In this document: positions 8,871 to 64,000 of the stretch, one piece after another
How positions within the stretch are numbered: position 1 is the first letter of the stretch
Layout of the letters: the number at the start of each line of letters is the position of its first letter
The notes under the pieces: model-generated
Databases searched by the model: none
Seen by the model: only the letters and a program-made list of their open reading frames with translations
Told to the model about the DNA's origin: nothing
Position numbers and translations under genes: made by a program
Assembly: GCA_030248295.1 (NCBI GenBank)
Contig: JASANH010000652.1
Span: 62,001 to 126,000 of the forward strand
Direction of reading: 5' to 3'
DNA length: 64,000 bases
Source: Mesodorylaimus sp. YZB2_4
Lineage: Eukaryota; Nematoda; Enoplea; Dorylaimida; Dorylaimidae

Positions 8871-10050
8871 ACCGCCGCTTTTTCTGGAAGGAAGGATTAT
8901 TACATGTAATATATAGTATTCGCTCCAACTCATTTTCGTCTCTAAATGTTCTTTCCTGATTAGTCTATTGGGTCAGACCTGGCAGTCTTCGAGTCGAACG
9001 CTCTTCCCTGTCTTTTGGTGGTGTCCTAATATGTGATGTGATTATGACACTTCAAAATACGCTTTGGATGAGTTTAAGAAAAAACACAATGCAATCTCGT
9101 ATCTTGATGAAATATGTGGGCTAGCAGTCCCATTCGATAACCTTATTACGTATAATAAACCTGGAATAAAGGAATAAACTGGATCAAACCAGTGTTAATC
9201 AGTATTTTTTGGTCTCAGTCTCCGATCCCTGGAGATCTCTTTGTGAGTAAATGGAAGACACGTTGCGCGGGTATTAGAAGTCCTAAATGTCCTCCAAGTC
9301 ATCACTGTGCCAAGTTGGTGCATATCCCACCCATCTGGCCCAGTCATCTAATAAGTGCCTAATAAGCGCCTAGTTTCTTTTGATTACGGTCCAGCGTGTG
9401 GCGTTTGCGTCCACGCTGGGTGCACTCTTCCGTGGGAGGGTTCGACTCCCGCCTTGGTAAAAAATCAAATTTGTTTCTTAGCTGTCGAGTGCTCTGTATT
9501 GTGTTTGCCTATGGATGAAGAAGGCACACTTGAAGAAGGAAGGCACAAGCACAGAAGGCACATTTGTTTTCTCAAGAAAACATTTATGGTCCACGTGAGA
9601 AGAAAATATAGGGGCGCCCAGGGTGCTGATGTACTGTAGACAGTCCCTGAGTCATCTCAAATAATTCATACCTATCCACTTGTACTTCTTCTAGTACACA
9701 CGTGTGACGTCTTTCTGGAAGTTTTTCTTTTGGCATGAGCACAATTTTCTGAAAGTCAAGAAAATTTTGAACTGCTTTGCACTCGATTCGCTTGAACCCA
9801 AAGTTCAAATGCTCGCTTGGAAGTCTTTCTTTGTTCAACTTTTCAGAGAGCTCAGTAAACAAAAGATGAAATATGAAAAAGATGAGCTTCTCGAATCTTC
9901 TTTAAATTCTAAACAGCTTTCAGTATTGGCTTCGGTGATTACGAGATAACCAGTTTGCCAAAGAATTTCGAGTGTTCTTATTTGCTTTCGGAAGATGAGT
10001 CCGTTCGAGGCAAACTGGATTTTGCCAAGGCTCTTGTTCAACTTTGAAGG
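8871..10050. other. Intergenic between secreted-protein genes
   Basis: Holds the poly(A) signals of the upstream gene at 9154-9178 and a partial SINE near 9400. Open frames at 9584-10131 have no domain. No further gene is supported. Confidence 0.4.
9395..9465 (+). mobile_element. Partial tRNA-derived SINE (subfamily 4)
   Basis: CCACGCTGGGTGCACTCTT and then GGGAGGGTTCGACTCCCGCC (box B) match the copy at 16233-16355 on the minus strand. Only the second half of the tRNA-like head remains. Confidence 0.6.
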
Positions 10051-13561: not shown

Positions 13562-16500
13562 CTAACGTTCCCTGTTCAATTCACCTGGTTTGAAAACAGC
13601 CGAAAATTTTTGCACGCGACGTCGTTTCGGAGCTCCGCCTGGAGCAGGCATCTGCTGAATATTACCAGCGCATATATCACTCAATGCTTGGTCCAAACTT
13701 TTCGTCGATGACACGTTCGATGTTGGCGAGCAAGCGCTTTTTGGCGAGGCTAAAAATAGATGCTACTGTACTGCGCTGACCTAATGTTTTCGACGCCAAA
13801 TTGATTAGGGCCTGCTGTTTAATCGGACACACCCAGCCAAGTTTGATTCCCGCCAGATACGACTCTTTTACAAGCGGTGTACAGAAGATGTGTAGGTTAT
13901 CCTGCCTTATTCTTATCGAACAGAGTCCGATCGCCCACTCGGAAATCCATCATATCTCAGCTGGCCCATAATATCGAAAGCCTCAAGCCAAAAGTAGAGC
14001 GCGCATGGGATGCCATCCTACTTACCAAGAGCCTTCTTAGCTTCTTGTTTTTCTTTCTGTTTTGCCTGCCGTTCGGCTAATTGACGACGACGTTGAACCT
14101 CGACTTTTGCATTTTCCACTTTCTGAATCAAGTCGCAAAAGAAATTGAGTAAAGTTTCCAATGCCATCGTATCTTCCATATAATACTGTTGCAAATCACG
14201 AGCCGATGATTGCACTTCATCAAATTGTTTTTGCAAAGTTTCAATGTGAGAATCAGCTTTCTAAAAATCATAGAACCTGCAAAATTTTAGATTTATTTTA
14301 AATTTTCAACAAATTCGCACCTCAAGTTGTTTTTCAGCCGTTTTATTTAAATCTTCGCTATTCAATTGTTCCACTTTCGCCTTGATTCCATTCACTTTCG
14401 CTTTAAGCGAATTAAATTCCGCCATCAGATTATTCAGAGGTTGCCTAAAACATAACCCTTCCATCCGTTCTTCACGTACTCCTCATCCCATCTCTTACTT
14501 GGCAGCTTCTTTAAGAATCTCCAATTCCTTCACGAAATTCAACAGTCCATTGTTCAATGTCAAGGCATTGTCCACCAGGAAATGCAAAAGAGACACAGCC
14601 GGTGTACTCGTCGATTTCGTGTCCAACACGCTCGAAAGACTTGACAAACGAAAACCGCACACAATACTTTTCGCCGAATTCTAAAATGAAACTCTTACAT
14701 GTCAGGTCAAAGTGCAAAGCTCATCGTTTTTGAGCGAAGCTCTTCACTCATTCATGGGCTGCCAGCATCTAACTCTCGTCCCCACTGGGTGGGTGTCAGC
14801 TGGGAGTACCTTCGACAGTGAGTCCGCACAGCCAGGTCTGCACAGTCAGCTTTGGGTCTACCTACGGACAAACCGACCTGGGCAGGGGATAGAGCCTGGG
14901 ACTAGCCGAGCTGAGCACCAAGTCTAAATGGGTGTGGCAGGGACGCGCTATCGTGCTGAGAATTTGGACTATTACTGGTGGGAAGTAGGGAAAGCAAGAT
15001 TCGCGTGGTCAGCGGTCAAAGACGAGCTGCACTTTTTTGAAATATATTTTGTGCAAGGTACACCTGAGCATCAAAGTGGCGGGCCTTCGAATCTTGCTTT
15101 CACTACTTTTAACCTGTAATTATTCAAATCCCAGCGCCATAGTTAGGCTGCATTCATGCTTCCTTGTCAGTACGCGCAGTAAAATCCTTAATTCACCTGA
15201 GGTCCAAACTGGGCGATGTAGGGCTTGCCAGGCTCAACCCAGGAACAGCCCCAGTCCCACTAGCCAACGCACCACAAAGGCCGTATTAGACTCTCGATTC
15301 AGCAGTAGACGGGGTTGTGACAGACCTGAACCCAAAGTGCTTACAGAGTAGTTCAAACCAACTACTCAAGACCAGCCCTCAACCGATGCCTGCAAGCCAA
15401 ACCACTCATTCGACCTCGACTTCGCCCTCATGGTCAGTCTCGTGCCTGGCCCTGACTAGGAGAGGCAGATCGGTTTCCTGAACAGTGCATTGATAGGTGC
15501 AGATAGAAGTATCCGCGCCTATTACACAAGGAGTCTCCTTGGAAGCAGGATCTCAGAAACTTGCCAAAAAATTACAGATAGGAATGCTGTGCCTGCTATG
15601 CCTCCAAATCCCAGGCGTAGCTGTCCCTAGCTCTCCTCCGCTAGCTTACCGAATTCAAGTAATTTCCAGTATCCAAAACGAAGCGAAGGAATTTTGTGAT
15701 CGACTGATTCGTACGCAAATCTTTGCATGCTTTGATCAACAGGCCCACCGATTTGCTCAGATCGTTCACCTGAAATCGATTGATTTGTTTCGAAATTGCA
15801 TTAATTTGTTCTAGCGAGCGTAATATTCTCTAATCGCCAGCAAAATCGATCATGGTAGAAGGTTTTGGTTTTTTCTTTCCTATGCTGCGCTATTCTGGCT
15901 CCAATTTAAATGGTTAAAGGGACGTTTGGTCACTAAGATAGAACAGTGTACCACCAATATACGCATCAAATATGTACAAGTACAGTACAAGTGCCACCCG
16001 CAGACCCTGTGCCCACCAACAATGCAATACAGCAAGCACACCAGCATCGACCGATGCCCCTCAGTCTGGATTCCGATCCGACCTAACCAGCCCGCCTTGA
16101 CGTATGTGACGCCAAGCCTTCACCAACATGCTGTCCTATGTGTCACTGTCCAATCAGGCGACGTAGCAGGGACTCAGGGGAACTCGTGTCATGTCCTACT
16201 TTATCCATGGCCAAGCACCACTTGAGGGCCAAGGAACACATAGATTGGCGAACATTTTGTACCGAGGCGGGAGTCGAACCCTCCTCTGTAAGTGCGCACC
16301 CAGCGTGAGAGGCAGGCGCATTAACCCGCTAGGCCACGACCCGGGCCAGCGCCTACAAATAGGATTCAATTCCAAAGTTCCAGCAGGCCGATCCACCCCT
16401 CAAATCTGAATCGGTGGATGCTGTCCACCCACATCGCATACCTTCTCTTCCAGCGAATACCCGAAATCCAATAGCTCCAATCGAGTCGGATATGTTACAT

Positions 16501-32399: not shown

Positions 32400-32957
32400 T
32401 GTTTTCAAATTGATCGCAATCTAATTAATTCTAGCAAATAGGACGAGGCCGATGTTGCAAAAACAGATCAAGTATCCGATGCGGGAGCAGACAAACTAAA
32501 TGGCGACCACGAAAGCCAAGTGCAAAAGAAGCCTGGAGGCCGGTCTTTTATACGAGTATCAGAAAAACCAGATTCCATAGATCCCTCCAAAAAAAACTGG
32601 ATACCTAGATTCGATTCGAGAACAGCCGAAAAATGTCTGCTCAGGGCGCCCGCCGTTGAGCCTGCGCATCAATACCCTGAATAATTTGGCAGCAAGTTCA
32701 AATTTGGCAAAACTCCTTTCGGAGCTACAGAATAGGAATCAGCATGAACTCTATGTTTTGCAAGCAGGGCCTAACTACGCGCATGGACTGATAGTGGGCC
32801 ATAGTTATCAGCAGCCAGTTATGACACTTTTGCAAAGTTAAGCTAATGCGCGCTGGTCCAACCCTGTATCGGGGTACTGTGATGGGGCCATGCCACGTGT
32901 ATATAGCCAGGCATTGTAACAAGGTTTTGAGTGCTAAGGGATACCTTAATTAGCAGT
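32400..32957. other. Upstream region of RING gene B, no gene seen
   Basis: Only short unsupported frames. Similarity to the upstream sequence of copy A stops about 20 nt before the ATG. Confidence 0.4.
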
Positions 32958-33055
32958 CATTTAGGCGGCAGTCGAGCCCTCCCCAGTAGGAGCCAACCTA
33001 GCGTGGGAGGCAGATGCTATGACCCACTAGGCCACGATGCGGTGCAGTATTAGAG
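32958..33055 (-). mobile_element. tRNA-derived SINE head (subfamily 4)
   Basis: The minus strand reads GCATCGTGGCCTAGTGGGTC, CTGCCTCCCACGCTAGG and GGAGGGCTCGACTGCCGCC, aligned with the head at 16233-16355. Confidence 0.65.
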
Positions 33056-53000: not shown

Positions 53001-56000
53001 TTCAAAAGTGTTTTTTGTTATGGAAATCGTGGGAAGCGTAGTCGAGTTTCGACTAGGGCACTACAGTAGGATTTGAAATTTTCTGTTCTAAATCGAGGAA
53101 ATGGTGAATAATTTATTTTTACCTTTGCCTAATCTTTTTGCAACATTCGGATTGCGAGGTATCTTATTGGGCGGATGTGTTTTTTCGGATCGAATCGGGG
53201 GAGATGGATGGGGTCGGTGCGGGACGGAGGCGGACTGGGCTGAGATTAATGGAATTGTGTAAATGCGACCTTGTCAATCACGTGTCCCCTTTCGGCCATA
53301 ACAGATGGGCTTGGAAAGAGTTTTTGCTTTTGAAACAGTTCTTTTGTTGATATTTTTTCACAGGATCAGATCAAAGGGATTCGATTTAGAGGATTGATGA
53401 CATTCGTAAATGGCGTGCCTTGGTGAAAGTGGCTTGGGTATACTGTACACGCTGACGGTAGGACTGGGATTTGGTATGGGATTAGGTTGGACAGGACCAA
53501 CTCGGCTACTGTCTCTCTTATCTGCGCGGCCTGGACTCGGGTTGCGCAAGCTGCGCTCAGTCCCGGTCACCAAACAGCACTTTTTCACAAAGCATTGATG
53601 GTCCGATTGGCTGTTTGACCGAGGTAATCTGGGTCATCTCGTTGGGCCTATGCTCGGATGAAGAATGTTGCTTTGACGTTGTTCGAGTCGAACTGGCTTG
53701 GATGACTTTGCCCTTGATAAGATAGAATATCAGTAAGTTCGTTTTGCTGATGCCGCATCCAAACTTTTTCCACGGATGACCGTTATTGATAATAATGTAA
53801 CATTCCTTATCTGTTGCCTTCTACTGTACATATGTGAGCACGTCACGTCGGCCTGCTTGTATTCAAATCATACTCTGACTATGGCCATGACCTATCCGCT
53901 AGTCAGCTAGATGCCTAGGCGGTAGGGGCGTCATGCTTCGGACGGTTCTAGCACGCTAGACGCGGTGGGGCCTCGAAGTGGGTGCTCTTTCGAAGAGTAC
54001 CGGTTATTGTACCTGAGCATAAGTGGTCTAGGAAGGGTGCATAGGTGACTGTCACTAATGATCTAGGCGCAGCTTCGTTCCATCATTCTTCCTGGACTCG
54101 TCATTGCAGCCCTGTAGCGAGCAGTCGTCATTTTTTCTTCTCTTTTTCATTTTCTGGTGCTCATGCCGTCGTCGTCCCTCGGTCTTTGAAATCGATAGAA
54201 AACAGGGAAAAGTTTTGCGTTTGGGGGTTGGGGACGGTTGTTGTCAAAATAGTCCTTGGAGCGTCAAAGATGGCCGAGCGTGTCCTTCACTTTTGGCTGG
54301 CCGTCGTCCGGCGTGCCAGGCCGAGAAGAGTCGCCTCTAGTTGCTTCAACAGTTTCGTAGATTTTTAGAAAAAGAAGCTAAAACTAGACAAAACGTCGTG
54401 CCGGCCACGAGCCAAGCTAGGAGCGCAGACAAATTGATTTTTTAACTCCTTTTTTGTACACACTGATGCAGGGCAATTAGGGCGGCTGGCAGTGAGTGCG
54501 GCACGTGCTAGCGGAAGTCTGACCCAAACAAGAAATGTGCGACAGACTATTAGCAATGCTAAGATTACGTATGCCATCGTGTGTCGTCGCTGGCCCGCCC
54601 CGTGCTCGTCTAGACTATGAGAGAGGCGCGTGTTGGTACATGGACGATGTCCGGCGAGTTTGTGACTCGTTTTTTACGACTCTCCCATCGACCTTGGCCA
54701 TCGTGTCTGGACGCCATCCAGCAGTCGTCCAGACGTCATCAAAAAAGGCGGTGGAAGGAGGCACGGGGACACGGAGATCCGTCTCATGCCATGTAGGGGA
54801 TGGTGGAGGTGGGGACTGTTTATGCACAGCTCATGGCTAAGATTAGCCGAGGCGAACTTAGGCCTTAGCTAAGGCTGAGCGAGTAAAGAAATTATAAAGT
54901 GTGCGCCCAGGGTGGTCGGTCGGATGGTGACAAAAAACATTGGCCTAGACTATGTTCGATCGATACGGTGCTGCGACGGTGAAGGTAGTTTCCGGCTCGT
55001 GAGAAATGCCAAGAGGAAAAAAAAGCGTAAAAGAACATTCATTGTGTTGTGTGGACGAGTACAGGAAGGCGTGTCTACGAGTCGCGAGGGCGCGTGGGAC
55101 GATGACGACGACGACCAACGACAACTACGACGCAATGCCATGCTACTGTGCAGGCCAGCGACTACGGCGCATTGATCATTTTTCTCGTGGCTCGTTTTTT
55201 TAAAATTGCTTCCACTTGGTCGTAGTAAAGAAGGAGGGACGAAACGAAGGGCGAGGAACATTTTTGCCTGGGCTTTTCCCCCTCTTCCTGGTATAGAAAG
55301 CTGCTGAGCGAAAAGCTCGACGGCGGGGCCAACGAACGGCGACAGTTGTTTTTTCCACGTCTCCTGATTTAAAGTCGATGATTAGCTTGAGCGACCAAGC
55401 CGCACTGAAACTCGTGTCGGCACCTTATGCTTGGTGATTAGTAACGGCGTTTAGGGGAATTATTCAATAAATTCTTCATTTCTGCTTCAAATTTAGTTTA
55501 GTAGAAAATGAATTTTTGAAAGTGAGTGCAAAAAATTCGGAAAGGGGCTTTGGAGGACGGCACTCGTGTGAACAACTGTTGGCACTGCGATGCATTGAAT
55601 TTCTATCCGCTCCTACTTTGGTTTGTGGTTCGCACAGAGCTCGATTGGGTGATCGACATACTGGGCCACCCTGGGGGGAGGATGCACCCTGTCGTGGCCT
55701 GGTTTGTTGAGCGTGCTTGATGGTCAGCTCGAGCCTGGGATGCATATCCGCTATGCACGGCCGTGCAGGATGATGGCAGGGAATAATTCGGACTCGGAGT
55801 GGGCGGATTGCGTGCACGTTCCATCATCGATTGCGATCAGGGCATCGATTTCGTAGAGGTCGCAAGGATATAGTTGACCAGACGTCTGGTTTGAGTGTTC
55901 ATAAATTTTTTTCGAGTCTAGTTGATTTTCTTTAGCATAAATTTTTTTGTAGTGACGTATGTTGGAATGTGTTCGAGGAGCGCGGGCTGTCCAAGAAGGG

Positions 56001-58480
56001 ATGCGAACCATTTGTTGGCGCCTGACGGAGCGTGTATAGGAAAAAAGCGGGAGGTGCCTAATCGCTTGGCTCGGCGTGAAAGGGAAAGAAAAAAACCCGA
56101 ATCGCGTCGGCTTCTGGTCTGGCACAACTCGAAAAGGGTTGGAGCGGCGCAATGACGCAGCCATTGGGTTCGTAGTTTGTTTTGAGTAACGCAATCAATA
56201 GTCATTGGCATTTTTTACATTCCATTGGTGGACATGAATCTTGTCTCGTCTATTGGAGACTGCCTACTTTTGACCCGTCCCCAATGGCTGTCAATCGACG
56301 GGGCGGAGAGTCTGAACGGAATTGACCAATGGTCACTTTCTGACTGCCAGCCATCCTAAACGGGCTGGCCGTGAAGAGAGCTTGAACGAAAGATCCCTGA
56401 GGCAGAAAAGAGGTTCATTTTTCTGAGCCAGTCGGTTTTTTTTCGTTTCTCGTCAGGAATTTTTACGGGCGTGGGGCTGGCGACGGGCGTGTGGCTTGAC
56501 GAGTTCGTCAGTGCGGTTGGGAGGGTTTTGTGGCTACGCGGGCACCCGTTTACACCCGACTGCCTACTATTGGTATTAGTGGCGCGTGGGTCGAGATTCG
56601 ATCGTTGGTCGCTCGTCGTCTGCGTCCGCTTTTCAGCGCGACGCGTGCTTTAAACCTGTGGGCTGCTTGCGACCTTAAAGAGTGCGACGCGAGCTACCCA
56701 AGCGGCTAGTCTTGCGTGTTTCCTTCACTTTTTTTTCAAACTCTGGACAAAGTAACGAGCGGTTGGTTGTCCAGAATTGACGGCCTTGGACCCTCCTGCG
56801 TCCACGTCACACGGCGTGCTGTGGGAGGGCTCGGGATCAGGTCCTTGGTCTTGCACGTGCCCCTATTTGATAATGGGCTGTTTGGGTAGTTGGCAGAAAT
56901 GGAATGCCCTTAGCCAGTGCTGGATGGGTGCCGACAGTCGTGCCCAGTTTGGATGTGCTAATTGAAGACCAGTCATGGACAGACCGGAAGTATGTACTGG
57001 CGTCATGGATTCGTACTGACTTCTTGGACGAGTCCATATTAGGCCTGGTTAGGCATGCCGCAACGACAGCTGGGGTGACCAGCGTAAGCGCTGTTACGGT
57101 GTGGACAGTCGGTCCGTTGCCAGACATTTCCTGTTCGAGGGAGGGGCACGCTAGTCTGCATAGTATGGGGCGCTGGTACTGGACTGGATGCTCGGCGATG
57201 GCTTTTAGTTGGTCGACAGTTTTTTTGCGTTTGGTTTGGAAATGGACTCGGAAGGGATGAGAAATAGGAGTGTCCCAGTGGATGTGTTGATGATGGTGTT
57301 GAGGGGATTTGGATAGTCTGATGTGGATGGTTGGTCGATTCCGAGTGATTGGTTCTCATTGCGCGGTCCAGGTGGAACTTTTGGGATGTCGTGTGGCCAT
57401 AGCCTCGTCATCGACATTCGGCCAAGAGGTTGGGCCGCGTGCACGGATTGTGTAGTTGGCTAACGGTGGAGACGTTTATTGGACGAAGAGAGGCCAAGGA
57501 AGAAATTGAATCAAGAGTTTTTTATGGATTTTTTTGTGGAAAATTTGTGGCTAGTTGTCGTAGGTTTTCTTGCCGCCCGGGAGGGACGCCATTGGACGAG
57601 GGCCTTGAGCTGGAACGGTTGGGGCGATGTTGAAGTAGGAGCAATTGTGTTGGCTGGGCCAAGCTGGGCATGGAGGGGAAACCCCGGTAGATCGTTTCTC
57701 GGGCTTGGACTTCGTTATAGGTAGATGGCTAACTGGACGGACAGAGGCAGCCAAAACGGCGGGGCGATTGAGGTTTTTTATGAACTTTTCAAGAGCTTAG
57801 GAAAAGCACGAGCGTGAACAAGCTCATCTGCTCGGCAAAAACGATCCTAGTGGCTTTATCATTTTGAAACTATGCTTACTTAAGGTCGTATGTAGACTAA
57901 ATGTGGAGAAAAAATTTTGCGCTTAAAAAGAAAGATTGCAAAGTAATTTAGAAGTGAATAGGTGTTTTTTTATGAAAAGTCAACCCGCCGTCTGAACGCC
58001 TTTTTTATGGCCGGATTTGGACGATGTTTTAGTTTGTTGACATTTTTACAGTAAGGCTGTCTGATTTTCCGTTTGTAGTCTGGCAGGTGGTGATTGGAAC
58101 GAGCTATGCTTAGACTGGTTAGCTTATTTTGGAACGCACAGGTGAAGTGATTGGGGTTGGAAATGTGTTACGGGCTTGGAATTCATTCAAATAGTGTCAT
58201 TGGAGTCGTCGAGTCTGGCCGACTGGAGTGCAAGATTGCGTGGAAGACGGTCCGAAGGATGGACTGTTTCCACCTGTCACTCGTCTACTTGTCGAAAAAG
58301 GGTGGTTTGGCTTAAGGTTAGGAAGAAGATAGATACACCTGCTGGAATTGGATGGATGCACTTTCTCTAAACTGGGGTCGTGCGTGTCAATCGAGAAGCC
58401 AGAAGTGGTCGTGTTCTTGATGGCTTATTTATACTGTATTATTTTGGGGTGCGAGAAGACTGCGGGTCCTCCAGGCTGAA
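53001..58480. other. Gene-poor stretch, G+T-biased on the + strand
   Basis: No recognisable coding exon. G exceeds C and T exceeds A over most of the stretch by eye, unlike the genic part of the window. Confidence 0.4.
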
Positions 58481-58487
58481 GAAACAT

Positions 58488-58697
58488 CGTACCTTGCTAT
58501 GGTCTACTCAAACCCGACCTCGTTATCCATTGCGATATCCGAAGCTGAAAAGGACAACTGGCCCCCTTGCCTTGCCAGATTGAGCTGGTTCGATATTTCT
58601 GGCCAATTAGCATTCGATTTATCGTTTTGTTCATTCGGCCTGTTGTCCATTTCAGTTTTGGATATCGGAATGATAACGAGGTCCTGACAAGGTACGG
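58488..58697. repeat. Long imperfect inverted repeat (hairpin)
   Basis: ACCTCGTTATCCATTGCGAT, ATCCGAAGCTGAAAAGGACA and ACTGGCC on the left pair with GGCCTGTTGTCCATTTCAGT, TTTGGATATCGGAATGATAA and CGAGGT on the right. About 50 bp pair with roughly 85-90% identity, around a loop of about 70 nt. CGTACCTTG...CAAGGTACG extends the stem outward beyond a one-sided bulge. Confidence 0.8.
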
Positions 58698-60420
58698 TGT
58701 TCCTTTGAAGCCATATTTGGAGAGGGCCGGAAGAATAGGGGTGCTGTCGTCATTTGGCAAAGTCACCTTGTTACGAGGAGGCCCGGAGGCAGCTAATTAG
58801 GATAATGAGTGGCCTAAAGAAGAGGGGGCATTTTGGGAAGAGGAGTGGAGCGGCGTGCGTGATGTTGAGTGTTCGGATGTAGTCGGCATGTGGGCGGGGG
58901 AGCGTTTACAGTAGACGTCAAGAATGGGGCCATCAGTCAGTCGAATTGTCGGCATGGTTTTGACCTAGCAATTTGCGGTGTACTGTATTGGAATTGGGAA
59001 AGTGACCTGGTGTAAGCACGAATGAGATTGCAATGGTGTCCGGTTTCTATTATATGAATCTATTGGATGGTGGATACTGCTGCCAGTCCTATTGTGTCAG
59101 TTGAATCGATGCGTAACTACCTCAACTTTTTTGCCTTCCAGAGAGGCATAGAAAAATGAATTTTGAAGGGGCGAAAGAATTCGACGTTTTGATGGTACAA
59201 TAATTTTGTCATTTCTGGCGCAGGGTGTGGTGTTGGGACGAAGGCTTGTCGAAATGGTGATTCCTTTCTTGCCATGTTTGGTATGCGGGTCAGATAGTTT
59301 TTGCCAAAAGTTGGTAGGTACAGTCCTGGGGATGAAGGCGGTCGGAGATGGTGTATTTCTTTGAAGATAGTTTTTGACTCGGTCGATTCAGTTTGACTGT
59401 CTTTTAGGTTTGGATGAGTGAGTGGACTTGGTTTTTCTTGCACGAGGAAGTGCAATGGATGCAGGCCATAGTGTCGAATGTGAGCGGGGGGTAAGGTGAA
59501 GGCGATGGATAAAGAGGGGTGCTGGTTTGGCAACACGTTACTGTAACATAGTTTGGGGTGGTGGCATTGATTTAGTGAGTCCAGATGTGATCTCTGATTG
59601 ATCAGGTTAGGAAAATAAGATTGAGGAGATGAAAGTTTTTTTTGATAGTGAATAATCTAGGATTACTGTATTTTGCAGTTTTATCGTCAGCATTTTTTGG
59701 TGGTTTGACATTTAGAAATGTGAATCGAAGTTGGTGAGCTGTTTTTTGAATCATTAGGAGGACCTTTGGGGTTTTTAGTTTGAGATTAGTGATGCACGTA
59801 CATTTAGGGGGTGCTTGCGGTGATAAGGAATTTGAGATAGGCTAGTTGGGTTTTATTAGTTTAGAAATGAGATAAGGAATAGAAAACGATTTTGCGTTGG
59901 CGAAAAAGAACATAGGAAAATGAATGTACAGATATTTTTGCAAAAGGAAGAAAAACGTAGATTTTCAAGGGAATAAGTATGGAATGTGATTTGTGTTGAA
60001 GCTTGTTTTTAATGAGTGCTGATTAATTTGTTCAAAGAATAGGCTTTTCGTCCAGTGATAAGGGATGTGTTTTGAAGAATGCGAACCCGTTTTGGCATTG
60101 GCTTTTGAACTTGCTTACTAACGGGTTCTTTTTTATCGAAAAAGCGGTCACGCCCTTTGACGTACACACATTCTAATAATGGAGTAAAAATAGGGAAGAG
60201 ATAGGTTTTGGCCTTTTGGCTTTTCAAAACGGAGATACGAGGAAGAGTGCGAAAACAATGACTGGGCCTCCGAGGGGACTCCTTTGACTAGGGGCGTGGA
60301 AAAAAGACGACCTTTTTATGTTGGACTAACTGGCAAGCTTAGAAATTACGTTTGTCTGAATGGAAGTTTGAATTGGGGGGGTAGCTACTGGGAAGGGGGG
60401 GCTGGGGAAACTGAAAACCT
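58698..60420. other. Gene-poor stretch, strongly G+T-rich, no feature seen
   Basis: A minus-strand open frame at 59117-59536 (139 codons) is explained by the strong strand bias and has no domain. Confidence 0.35.
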
Positions 60421-60422
60421 TA

Positions 60423-61215
60423 GGTGGGATTCGAACCCTCTGCCGCGAATGGGCCAGAGTGTGTGCCAATTTCCGCTGGTGGGGTGTGGTGTGGTGTCGC
60501 TGCCAGTTCAGACTGGAGAGCAAGGGACCACTGAAATCCAAAATGTGCTATGCACAGGTGGGATTCGAACCTTCTCGCAAGTGCCGTCGTGGTGGGGGTA
60601 CCTGCGGTACATACTTGAGAGGTCTGTTGCGTTAAGGCCGCAGATATATTTGCTCAGGCGGGATTCGAACCCTCTGCGGCGAATGGGCCAGGTGTGTGCC
60701 TAGTGTCGCGGTGGGGAGGGGGTACCTACATGCTCGGGGTCTGTTGTGGTGAGGCAACAAACGTGGTTTGCCCAGGTGGGATTCGAACCTTCTCCCGCGA
60801 GCGAATGCAATCATCATAATATTTTACCCAGTACCCAAGCACGGACACGCAATCGAGGGAAACAATAAAAAGGGGGGCCGAGTGCCGCAGTGGGGCGTGT
60901 GGTGTTGTGCACGCGTTTCCACATGCCGTTCAAGACCGTGGAGCATGAGATTACTAGAAATCAAAATGCCTAGGTGGGATTCGAACCCTCCGCCGCGAAT
61001 GAGCAGGTGTGTGCTAAGTGCCGGGATGGGGATACCTAAGTGCTTGGGGGTCTGCTGGGTCACAAACATGTTTCGCCCTGGCGGGATTCGAGCTCTCTGC
61101 CGCAACGCCAACCAGTGAGGTACAAAGTCTTGGGTACCTAGCTAGTGTGCTGGGTGAGCTACTGTTGAGCGGTCACCGTCAGGAGGGAGAGAATGCCGTC
61201 CGTAAGTGCCGCAGG
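60423..61215 (-). repeat. Cluster of six tRNA T-arm-like modules (antisense)
   Basis: GGATTCGAACC, the complement of box B, occurs at 60427, 60561, 60661, 60779 and 60977, with a decayed sixth copy at 61084 (GGATTCGAGCT). Each is preceded by AGGTG or AGGCG and most are followed by CTCTGCCGCGAATG-like sequence. Between them recur GTGTGTGCC, GGGTACCTA, TGCT-GGGGTCTG and CAACAAACGTG/CACAAACATG blocks. No matching box A is seen on the minus strand next to them. Confidence 0.8.
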
Positions 61216-62757
61216 GGGTAGCTAGTGTAGGGAAGGTCAAGTGCGGGCTCGTCACGTGGCGCCGAGCAGTCTCCCATTGCCAGCCACTGTGTGTTTAGAC
61301 TGTTTAGAAATGGCATATTTGAACTTCTGAGTGTTGAGTGTGGGCGAGGAGAGAATGTAAGCAGTTATCTTTGCAGGCTCATCTCGGTTCGGTGCGTTGA
61401 TATTGTGTCGAAGTGTCGATCAGGTCGTATCGAATCGGTTGTCGGGCGTGTGGAATCGTAGTTCGAGGAGACAACAGGTAAACTTGTCTAAAAAAGAGGC
61501 AAAGAAGTGATTGAGGCTGGGCATTGTCTTATGGTGTCTAGACTGTGGGAGGGTCAATTATGGTCTGCAATATGGCCTGGCGAGTACTGTAGACGAGAGA
61601 AGGGTTTTTGCAGGGTCGGCTTTCCGTTTTGGTCGTTGTGTGATGGACGATCGTGTTGAGGCGGGTGCGTAAGGATAGGTAGTTTCTGGGAAAAAGGGTT
61701 GTATGCGGAATGGGCAGTTTTTGTGTTGTTTTGTAACCTATGGAGCAGATGACGGTTGATTGGTGTGGGCGATGCTAGATTACAGGCTCGGCACTGGCTT
61801 ATAAGAAATGCTGTCGGTGCTCATTCGGTTAGCGGCTAACAAATTAGGCGCATAGGCCGAGGTAATTTTTGCGAAACGCCGAGTGCCGCCTCATCATCCG
61901 AGAGCTAGGGCTAGGGTTTTTTCTTATTCTCAATTCGTTTGTGTAGTTTTTTGAGGGAAGAACGATCGGAGGAGAGGAGATCGTAAATCGAGGCCAGGTA
62001 GACAGGTAGGCGGTTCGAGTGCACCAACGAATCTGGCCCGTTCTCGCGCCTCGAACATAAATAAGGGGCAGAGTCAGTTGTGCGAGGCAGTGAGGCGAGG
62101 AACGAGGCTTCTACTGTAGACGGCCATTCGAGAGGTGGCGACCCTTTGGGAGACACTTTTTGAACGAGCAAAAGCGTGTTTGGAGGAGCGGTGAGATAAA
62201 AACGATGTGCTATTTGTAATTACAAGTTGATAAATAGGCGTGAAATGGATTTGCCATCGGAAAATGATGGGTGTTTTTGGCTCTGCCTTCCCCATCCCTT
62301 CTGTGTTGTGAGCGAAAAAATGCGAATATGTCCACGTGAAATTTCGTTACGAACGTACTTTGGCCAGTTCTTTAGGAAATTTTGAAAAATGACGAAAAAC
62401 GTCTGCTTTTCGAGGAGAGAAAGAGTTTTCTAGTCTGGATGTGTTCAGTGACGGTGCCAGGTACGTTCGCTCAGGGTCTGGGCACGCGAGGCGGTTGCGT
62501 CAGCATCGAGGCAGATGCGATCGAGGAATGGGATCGTGTATCATTTTATGTAGGCCATGTTTTAAAAATGAAAATCAGCTTATAAAAAAGTCAAGCTATC
62601 GAGAAACCAGTTTTCGCCAGGTGCTGCGAATTTGACAAGTTGAACATTTGGGTTTCGGAATTTTTGAATTTTTACGAATGAATGGTCAAAGTAGGATGGC
62701 GAAGTGCAGTGGAGGTTCGGGTCTGATGGCATTTTTCCCCCAACGAAGAAACTCATA
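61216..62757. other. Gene-poor stretch, no feature seen
   Basis: Short frames without domains or splice context. Confidence 0.35.
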
Positions 62758-62889
62758 TCTGAAACTATATTTTACGCACTGGTGCAAGAATGTGGCACTT
62801 GCGGTGACAGGCGACGTTTTCTCGCCCCGATCGCGTAAAATGTAGTTTCAGACTTTCTTTGTCTGCAAATCTGAAACTATCTTTTACGC
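62758..62889. repeat. Inverted plus direct 20-bp repeat trio
   Basis: TCTGAAACTATATTTTACGC at 62758-62777, its near-perfect reverse complement at 62833-62852, and a further direct copy TCTGAAACTATCTTTTACGC at 62870-62889. The first two can form a stem with a loop of about 55 nt. Confidence 0.85.
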
Positions 62890-64000
62890 GGTGCATAAAA
62901 GTAGCGCGTCCGTTCTGGTTTTGTGCAGGATAGACTCGTTGATGAACATGAAATGAAATAATCGTGTTGTTGACATAGAATGTGAAAAATTTGAAACCGG
63001 AAGTGACACATGATTGCGAGCTTGGTAAAAGTTAGTTGAAGGTAATGGATTCTTGGATTTTTCTCGTGGAAATATTCGTATTTTTCCTTTCTTCGTGTCT
63101 ACAGTAGATTGAGAGCGAGGCGCGCTGGTCCGTTCATTTTGATTCGTTGGTTTTTGTGCGTGCGATGTCGCTGGCCCAGTTTTCTCCGCCTCACTTGGTG
63201 ACTGGCGGGCGAAGGAGGAGGGAGGCCATGCCTAGTTTTTCGTCTCAACCTGGTTGCCATAGTTTTGGGCTTTGAAGAAATTCAAGTTTTGGGCAAAGGC
63301 GGCTGGCCCAGGCTGCCGTCGAGACGACATCTGCTCAGGCAACGTCAAGTTTTCGAAAAGGGGAATAGAGATGACGATAATCGGGGGCTCGGGCAACTGG
63401 TCCTGCTCGCTTCGACAAGATTAGTTCAGATACTGTGGACTTTTTTGGTGATTCAATGTGGGACAACCAGTGTCTCTTCTAAGTTGCAAGGTAATGGTCG
63501 AGGGGCATTGGACTTACTAAGCTTAGAATTCCCCAGATTCCTCGATCCACCACAGTCCAGATGGATCCAGTTGGATTCCCGGCTGGATGCGTAAAATCCA
63601 TCAGAATTCGAATTCGAACTCCTTGGCGCCAGGGGTTGGAGGTTTTCACATTCTTCTAGATGGAGAGACAGAAACATTAGTTTTTGTGCTTGAAAATGAG
63701 TGTGACATAAGTTTGAGATGAGGAAATGACCCAATGTCAGCGGGAGTCGTGCTGTCTATCCTTTAATGGGTATAAATTTTTGAGTATTTCCGAGTTTTTG
63801 TTTTCGAATATCTTGTTTCAAAATAGAATAGTTCTGGCGAGATGTTTCGCCTAACTGCACCTTTGGTAGACGAAAGAGGTGCGGTTGAGAAAATAGGCTG
63901 GTTTTCGTTGCATACCTGAAAAACCTGGGCCGAGGTCCTTGTTTGTGCCGAAGCGGTTACAGTATGACAGGGGCCCGGCGAATGACAAAGTATTTTGGGG
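62890..64000. other. Gene-poor end of the window, no feature seen
   Basis: Open frames at 63265-63734 on both strands have no recognised domain. Confidence 0.35.

Follow-up and report, generated by a model that had tools for sequence, protein, structure and literature searches.

The question raised by this locus is why several complements of the tRNA-gene box B stand close together with no box A near the end of the window, the whole stretch of 64,000 nucleotides (contig C143:62001-126000, in a genome of 145.1 Mb and 1067 contigs) that was analysed. A sequence-only reading had offered two answers, a TFIIIC-only (ETC-like) boundary element and a decayed tandem of SINE heads.

Six box-B modules in a head-to-tail array

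Exact copies of GGATTCGAACC start on the + strand at 60427, 60561, 60661, 60779 and 60977, and their minus-strand reading is box B, GGTTCGAATCC. A sixth module, starting at 61084, is GGATTCGAGCT, with two mismatches to GGATTCGAACC. The six complements that had been noted, five exact 11-mers and one with two mismatches, are thus real, and the start-to-start distances of 134, 100, 118, 198 and 107 bp are reproduced. On the minus strand the modules are M1 (60427..60437, box B GGTTCGAATCC, TTTT at +10), M2 (60561..60571, TTTT at +18), M3 (60661..60671) and M4 (60779..60789), both without TTTT within 49 nt, M5 (60977..60987, TTTT at +11) and M6 (61084..61094), which carries the degenerate box B AGCTCGAATCC with two mismatches and has no TTTT within 49 nt. 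All five exact array copies lie within 561 bp. The window contains 10 sites with at most one mismatch to the 11-mer, six of them exact and five of these in the array, against an expectation of 1.06, and 10 sites were reached in none of 100 shuffles.

The surroundings had been described as strand-biased, and this is upheld by GC skew, which ranges from +0.04 to +0.46 in the 28 one-kb bins from window position 55000 to about 19 kb beyond the window end and is at least +0.13 in 26 of them. A positive skew of up to +0.46 per kb is seen over window 54000-64000 and on C143 as far as about 143000. The label gene-poor for the surroundings of the array was judged from ORF lists only. ORFs over the array (window 60194-60703 and 60753-61118, + strand, and overlapping frames) carry GGIRTL, RWDSNP and VGFEPS, which we take to be common spurious peptides of antisense tRNA-like repeats. 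A coding repeat was rejected because the spacings are not multiples of 3 and none of the four ORFs that cross it has a Pfam match.

The array is a head-to-tail tandem of about 0.7 kb with two linker types, and the order of modules and linkers, read by eye, is M6-A-M5-B-M4-A-M3-A-M2-B-M1. Units M6-M5 and M4-M3 share 74% identity in an alignment of 144 columns, and M1 aligns with M3 over 66 columns and with M5 over 55 columns at 86-87% identity. The linker blocks common to the units form families D1-D4 and the self-alignments are significant, in agreement with the earlier claim of shared linker blocks. The type A linkers on the minus strand are M6-M5 (61083 to 60988, i.e. 60988..61083; block families and self-alignment), M4-M3 (60672..60778; self-alignment) and the short M3-M2 (60572..60660; block families and self-alignment). 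The type B linkers on the same strand are M5-M4 (60790..60976), recognised by block families and reading by eye, and M2-M1 (60438..60560), in which a CATTTTGGATTTC block resembles CATTTTGATTTC of linker M5-M4 by eye. Within linker M5-M4, at 60868-60896, a further A-linker block (66% identical) that adjoins no box B was found by eye, suggesting that one unit probably lost its box.

A GGTA motif is present on the minus strand 31-55 nt upstream of five of the six box Bs: at 61135..61138, 44 nt upstream of the box of M6, and with first bases at 61036, 60835/60828, 60726 and 60602, which are 49, 46/39, 55 and 31 nt upstream of M5, M4, M3 and M2, respectively; the motif is absent before M1. The SINE family S2, described below, has a counterpart, GGTTA, 46 nt upstream of its box B (counted by eye). 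These distances lead to the suggestion that the GGTA motifs may be a relic of the box-A side, that is, of a D-loop beside box A.

Repeats with box B, S2 included, are common in the genome, and so several such elements might have inserted independently at one spot. The units, however, share a single orientation and are separated by homologous linkers, which argues for duplication and makes independent insertion highly improbable. In a search with the array DNA, no other match was found in the 145-Mb genome, although very common words are passed over in searches of this kind; when up to 3 mismatches are allowed, the 28-nt module is matched within the array only. The block GAGGGTTCGAATCCC occurs in 59 copies, and only the three in the array stand within 1 kb of one another.

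The S2 SINE as the probable parent

The box A consensus is TRGYNNARNNGG, with 8 defined positions. The array has no place that agrees with TRGYNNARNNGG at 7 or 8 of these positions, against 1.2 expected from mononucleotide shuffles, and the statement that no box A is present therefore holds. ARAGORN reports no tRNA, no Rfam family reaches its gathering level over the window, and with an E limit of 10 Rfam gives five matches in 59500-62000, none of them to a tRNA family. Four modules were folded, and none folds better than its shuffles (z of 0.70 for M1, 0.47 for M3, 0.65 for M4 and -0.36 for M5). Neither a box A spaced from box B as in tRNAs nor a cloverleaf, the marks of a tRNA or other type 2 Pol III gene, is present in the array. 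tRNA genes and pseudogenes were rejected on the ARAGORN, Rfam and folding results. That the modules are what is left of Pol III genes or of tRNA pseudogenes in tandem agrees with a box B that is exact in five of the six and with TTTT 10-18 nt downstream in three of the six, but the lack of box A and of any ARAGORN or Rfam tRNA, together with z values of about 0 in the four modules tried, renders this origin unlikely. In a full-text literature search for GGTTCGAATCCC, nothing relevant was seen by title or abstract opening among the matches listed.

S2 is a tRNA-derived SINE whose 13-copy consensus has a box A-like TGGCCTAGCTGG as well as box B, together with a body. It has 2032 first-look candidates in the genome, 40 of which were scored. 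Fuller copies are present in the window at about 16182-16341, 9383-9533 and 32889-33039, with limits taken from an S2 profile that these copies helped to build, and partial copies are also present; blastn of the S2 consensus against the window gives the three fuller copies E values of 1.8e-50, 2.0e-24 and 3.5e-15. The S2 profile, built from 13 copies of which none is from the array, matches all six modules with window E values of 2.2e-5 to 0.0026 over aligned stretches of 27-66 nt, while the reversed window yields one match at E 0.88. Conversely, a model of the array run against 81 fetched loci gives its top scores, over 29-45 nt, to L087, to the S2 copies L081, L018, L040 and L070, and to L035.

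Outside the core, the likeness of the array to S2 appears weak apart from one linker. An S2-body-like stretch on the minus strand at 60801..60869 (coordinates worked out from the alignment) in linker M5-M4 has a local score of 52, which was equalled by none of 400 dinucleotide and none of 5000 mononucleotide shuffles. This linker is the fifth-ranked place in the window for the S2 body, after four S2 copies, and window regions outside those four copies score up to 48. The whole array scores 64.5 against the whole of S2, the best of 1000 shuffles being 59.5. When seven segments were compared with the S2 body and head (14 tests), the M5-M4 body comparison was the clear one; nominal values were 0.045 for the M4-M3 body and 0.03 for the M3-M2 head, and the remainder were at least 0.24. 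Summed over the module parts outside the core, the likeness to S2 has P of 0.056 upstream and 0.059 downstream, and the module consensus gives 0.18 and 0.12, respectively. A profile of the S2 body alone had no match in the array with the E limit set at 10. Position 59 of box B is C in the 13-copy S2 consensus and A in all six modules.

Tandem duplicates, a core that matches the S2 T-arm and one linker that resembles the S2 body bear out the decayed SINE-head tandem of the sequence-only reading, and the TFIIIC-only boundary that headed it is without direct support. The tandem structure, the lack of a second copy in the searches made, the S2 T-arm likeness of the core and the absence of box A are direct observations; S2 or a close relative is probably the parent, S2 would be the source of the linkers, and the array would be without function. 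We thus regard the array, with good though not full confidence, as a decayed, locally duplicated tandem of SINE-head fragments whose probable parent is S2 or a close relative. The starting piece would be a fragment of an old tRNA-derived SINE, antisense to the + strand, consisting of the 3' part of the tRNA-like head (the T-arm with box B) and some body or unrelated sequence, the box-A half having been lost or decayed. Local head-to-tail duplication, presumably by unequal crossing-over or replication slippage, would then have produced the array of about 0.7 kb at the single locus known from the searches made, and the copies would later have diverged through substitutions and indels.

Core conservation and the TFIIIC reading

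The core has 2 mismatches in 66 site-copies and the near flanks have 0.167 per site. In star-tree simulations such conservation has P of 0.0003 at the core itself and 0.004 when the best window is taken. If UPGMA trees are built on near flanks (three sets), the values are 0.00075-0.005 at the core and 0.004-0.03 for the best window, and the tree from all 37 full non-core columns gives 0 of 4000 and 0.00025, respectively. The better-kept core hints at constraint after duplication. This hint is weak because there are six copies, the alignment is centred on the core and gene conversion may have acted. Since plain decay does not predict a better-kept core, it counts against the decay reading. Position 59, which is free in box B, and columns -3, -2, +11, +13, +14 and +18 are equally invariant, so that the conserved block extends beyond a TFIIIC site and does not have the shape of box B.

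These data bear on the possibility that the array is an ETC-like cluster with box B only, in which TFIIIC, bound there and marking the edge of a domain, would have preserved the boxes. Both the star-tree and the UPGMA tests show stronger conservation in the core than in the flanks, and most yeast and human ETC sites have box B only according to PMC6950938. The same paper, however, gives both boxes to C. elegans ETC sites, and the invariant block lacks the shape of box B, the box is broken in one of the six modules, and no second copy of the array was found, the clustering of the modules being a consequence of tandem duplication. An ETC-like cluster is quite unlikely on this evidence. Its box B match is present as five exact GGTTCGAATCC, and of what characterises an ETC site the array would have only this sequence feature. 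The more specific proposal that the box Bs have been selectively kept while their surroundings decayed, so that a satellite has turned into an ETC cluster acting as a multi-site TFIIIC-only anchor or boundary, is very unlikely. The TFIIIC B-block family, PF04182, was not found in a search made exon by exon, which is hence no proof of absence. The genome is presumably eukaryotic, as it has SINEs and spliced genes. The nematode SL1 22-mer had no match in it at up to 1 mismatch, none of seven telomere-type motifs was repeated at 20 contig ends, and cuticle family PF00379 was not recovered in a search that also missed all of its 14 controls.

Under the preferred reading as a SINE-head tandem, box-B clusters without box A can form cheaply, by tandem duplication of SINE heads, and caution is due before a cluster of this kind is taken for a boundary element. 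Should TFIIIC bind the array, the locus would offer a natural test of whether ETC sites can originate through satellite formation.

Box B elsewhere in the genome and in known systems

The exact box-B 11-mer occurs 710 times in the genome (350 + 360), and its reversed control 39 times. The first 100 places listed yielded 93 boxes that were read, the other seven being left out of the counts. Five of the 93 lie inside ARAGORN tRNA calls (two in L001 and one each in L039, L067 and L082), and many belong to repeat families labelled S1 to S4. The first TTTT lies at +12 to +17 after the box in 51 of the 93, and any TTTT is found in a 40-nt control stretch farther downstream in 21 of the 93. A good box A (7-8 of 8 positions) lies within 75 nt upstream in 31 of the 93, compared with 10.8 expected by shuffling, suggesting that a good part of the relatives elsewhere retain box A. 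The two tRNA calls of L001 (1437-1522 and 1770-1853; 84-86 nt, anticodons TCT and TGT) start 333 bp apart and by eye resemble long-arm (Ser-type) bodies with other anticodons.

The S4 flank CTCAAGGCTCAAGTTTTTG with up to 2 mismatches occurs 208 times in the genome, against 3 for the control. In 30 S4 loci chosen by this flank, with column -1 excluded, the consensus is matched by 231 of 300 cells of box B minus position 59 and by 202 of 360 cells of twelve flank columns (Fisher 1.9e-8), and at position 59 itself by 16 of 30. Such conservation of box B is what Pol III-dependent repeats are expected to show. S4 box-B units also occur in outward-facing, TIR-like inverted pairs at L032/L102 (C10:706200-706296) and L067/L103 (C11:293307-293438). 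In a scan of 74 boxes, 19 of the 93 rows having been dropped beforehand, an inverted box B with at most 2 mismatches was found upstream of 17 and downstream of 2, the upstream reversed control giving 1; direct copies were found upstream of 8 and downstream of 7.

A second, independent box-B tandem exists, L033 (C11:866300-867600), which has five boxes 110-125 bp apart in units that are 88-100% identical pairwise, indicating that box-B clusters arose by duplication more than once in this genome. By eye, the antisense strand of L033 resembles the S2 head; the whole locus scores 63.0 against S2, within the shuffle range (maximum 64.5 in 300). At L170 (C38:496576-496692), two near-identical GTAAGTGTGATTRGGGTTCGATTCC units stand 92 bp apart.

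Three introns of 56-63 nt elsewhere in the genome consist mostly of a tRNA T-arm/box-B unit flanked by splice sites, and the coding sequence across the join of all three matches known proteins. They are the 63-nt intron of L077/L106 (C11:1018007-1018030; spectrin alpha-like, phmmer E 5.1e-32), the 56-nt intron of L059/L107 (C9:1201917-1201940; cGMP-dependent protein kinase-like, E 9.3e-27) and that of L183 (C88:34429-34456; GRDP-like, Pfam E 4.3e-7), which has 63 nt, a 31-nt choice also being possible. A scan of 105 rows gave 11 open spliced frames, including three duplicates that had been fetched a second time; among 144 control positions there were 7. GTRAGT lies 2-18 nt before box B at 38 places, one box being counted three times, against 4 in the control, the abundance of box B not being factored in. 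Of these places 16 were fetched and six peptides tested, with one Pfam match; one of the five Pfam-negative peptides had no match when compared with solved structures. It is possible that such box-B mini-introns are tRNA-derived introners. The words tRNA and SINE are absent from the main text of an introner survey (PMC9860276), which within animals and land plants describes introners in only two groups.

Among known systems, the array looks like a SINE-derived minisatellite. It is a head-to-tail repeat of at least four copies, and its units include part of a SINE head, box B among it, and differ from one another in having either of two linker types. Instead of long arrays or many loci, the searches made show a single locus of about 0.7 kb. 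In the snake satellite Squam3 sSat, as PMC10702118 describes it, a 67-nt unit present across 19 snake genomes joins the 3' portion of the SINE head, box B included, to a stretch of the body (SINE positions 42-108), a layout that would place box A outside the unit. The array resembles it as a tandem whose unit has the 3' portion of a tRNA-related SINE head, also with box B, and perhaps a body section, whereas the array units are 100-198 nt long, diverged and confined to one locus, and their body part is clear in one linker only. As to C. elegans ETC sites, according to PMC6950938 44.6% overlap repeats, nearly all of them CeRep3, and almost all have both boxes, most of those in yeast and human having box B only. 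The array shares with ETC sites and CeRep3 the character of tRNA-like dispersed repeats with a strong box B that are able to cluster; in contrast, box A is also present at the C. elegans sites, which were identified through TFIIIC binding. TFIIIC-bound mouse SINEs (PMC3744447) likewise present SINEs as a source of TFIIIC sites, and the evidence for their function comes from binding data and from experiments in which a TFIIIC subunit was silenced.
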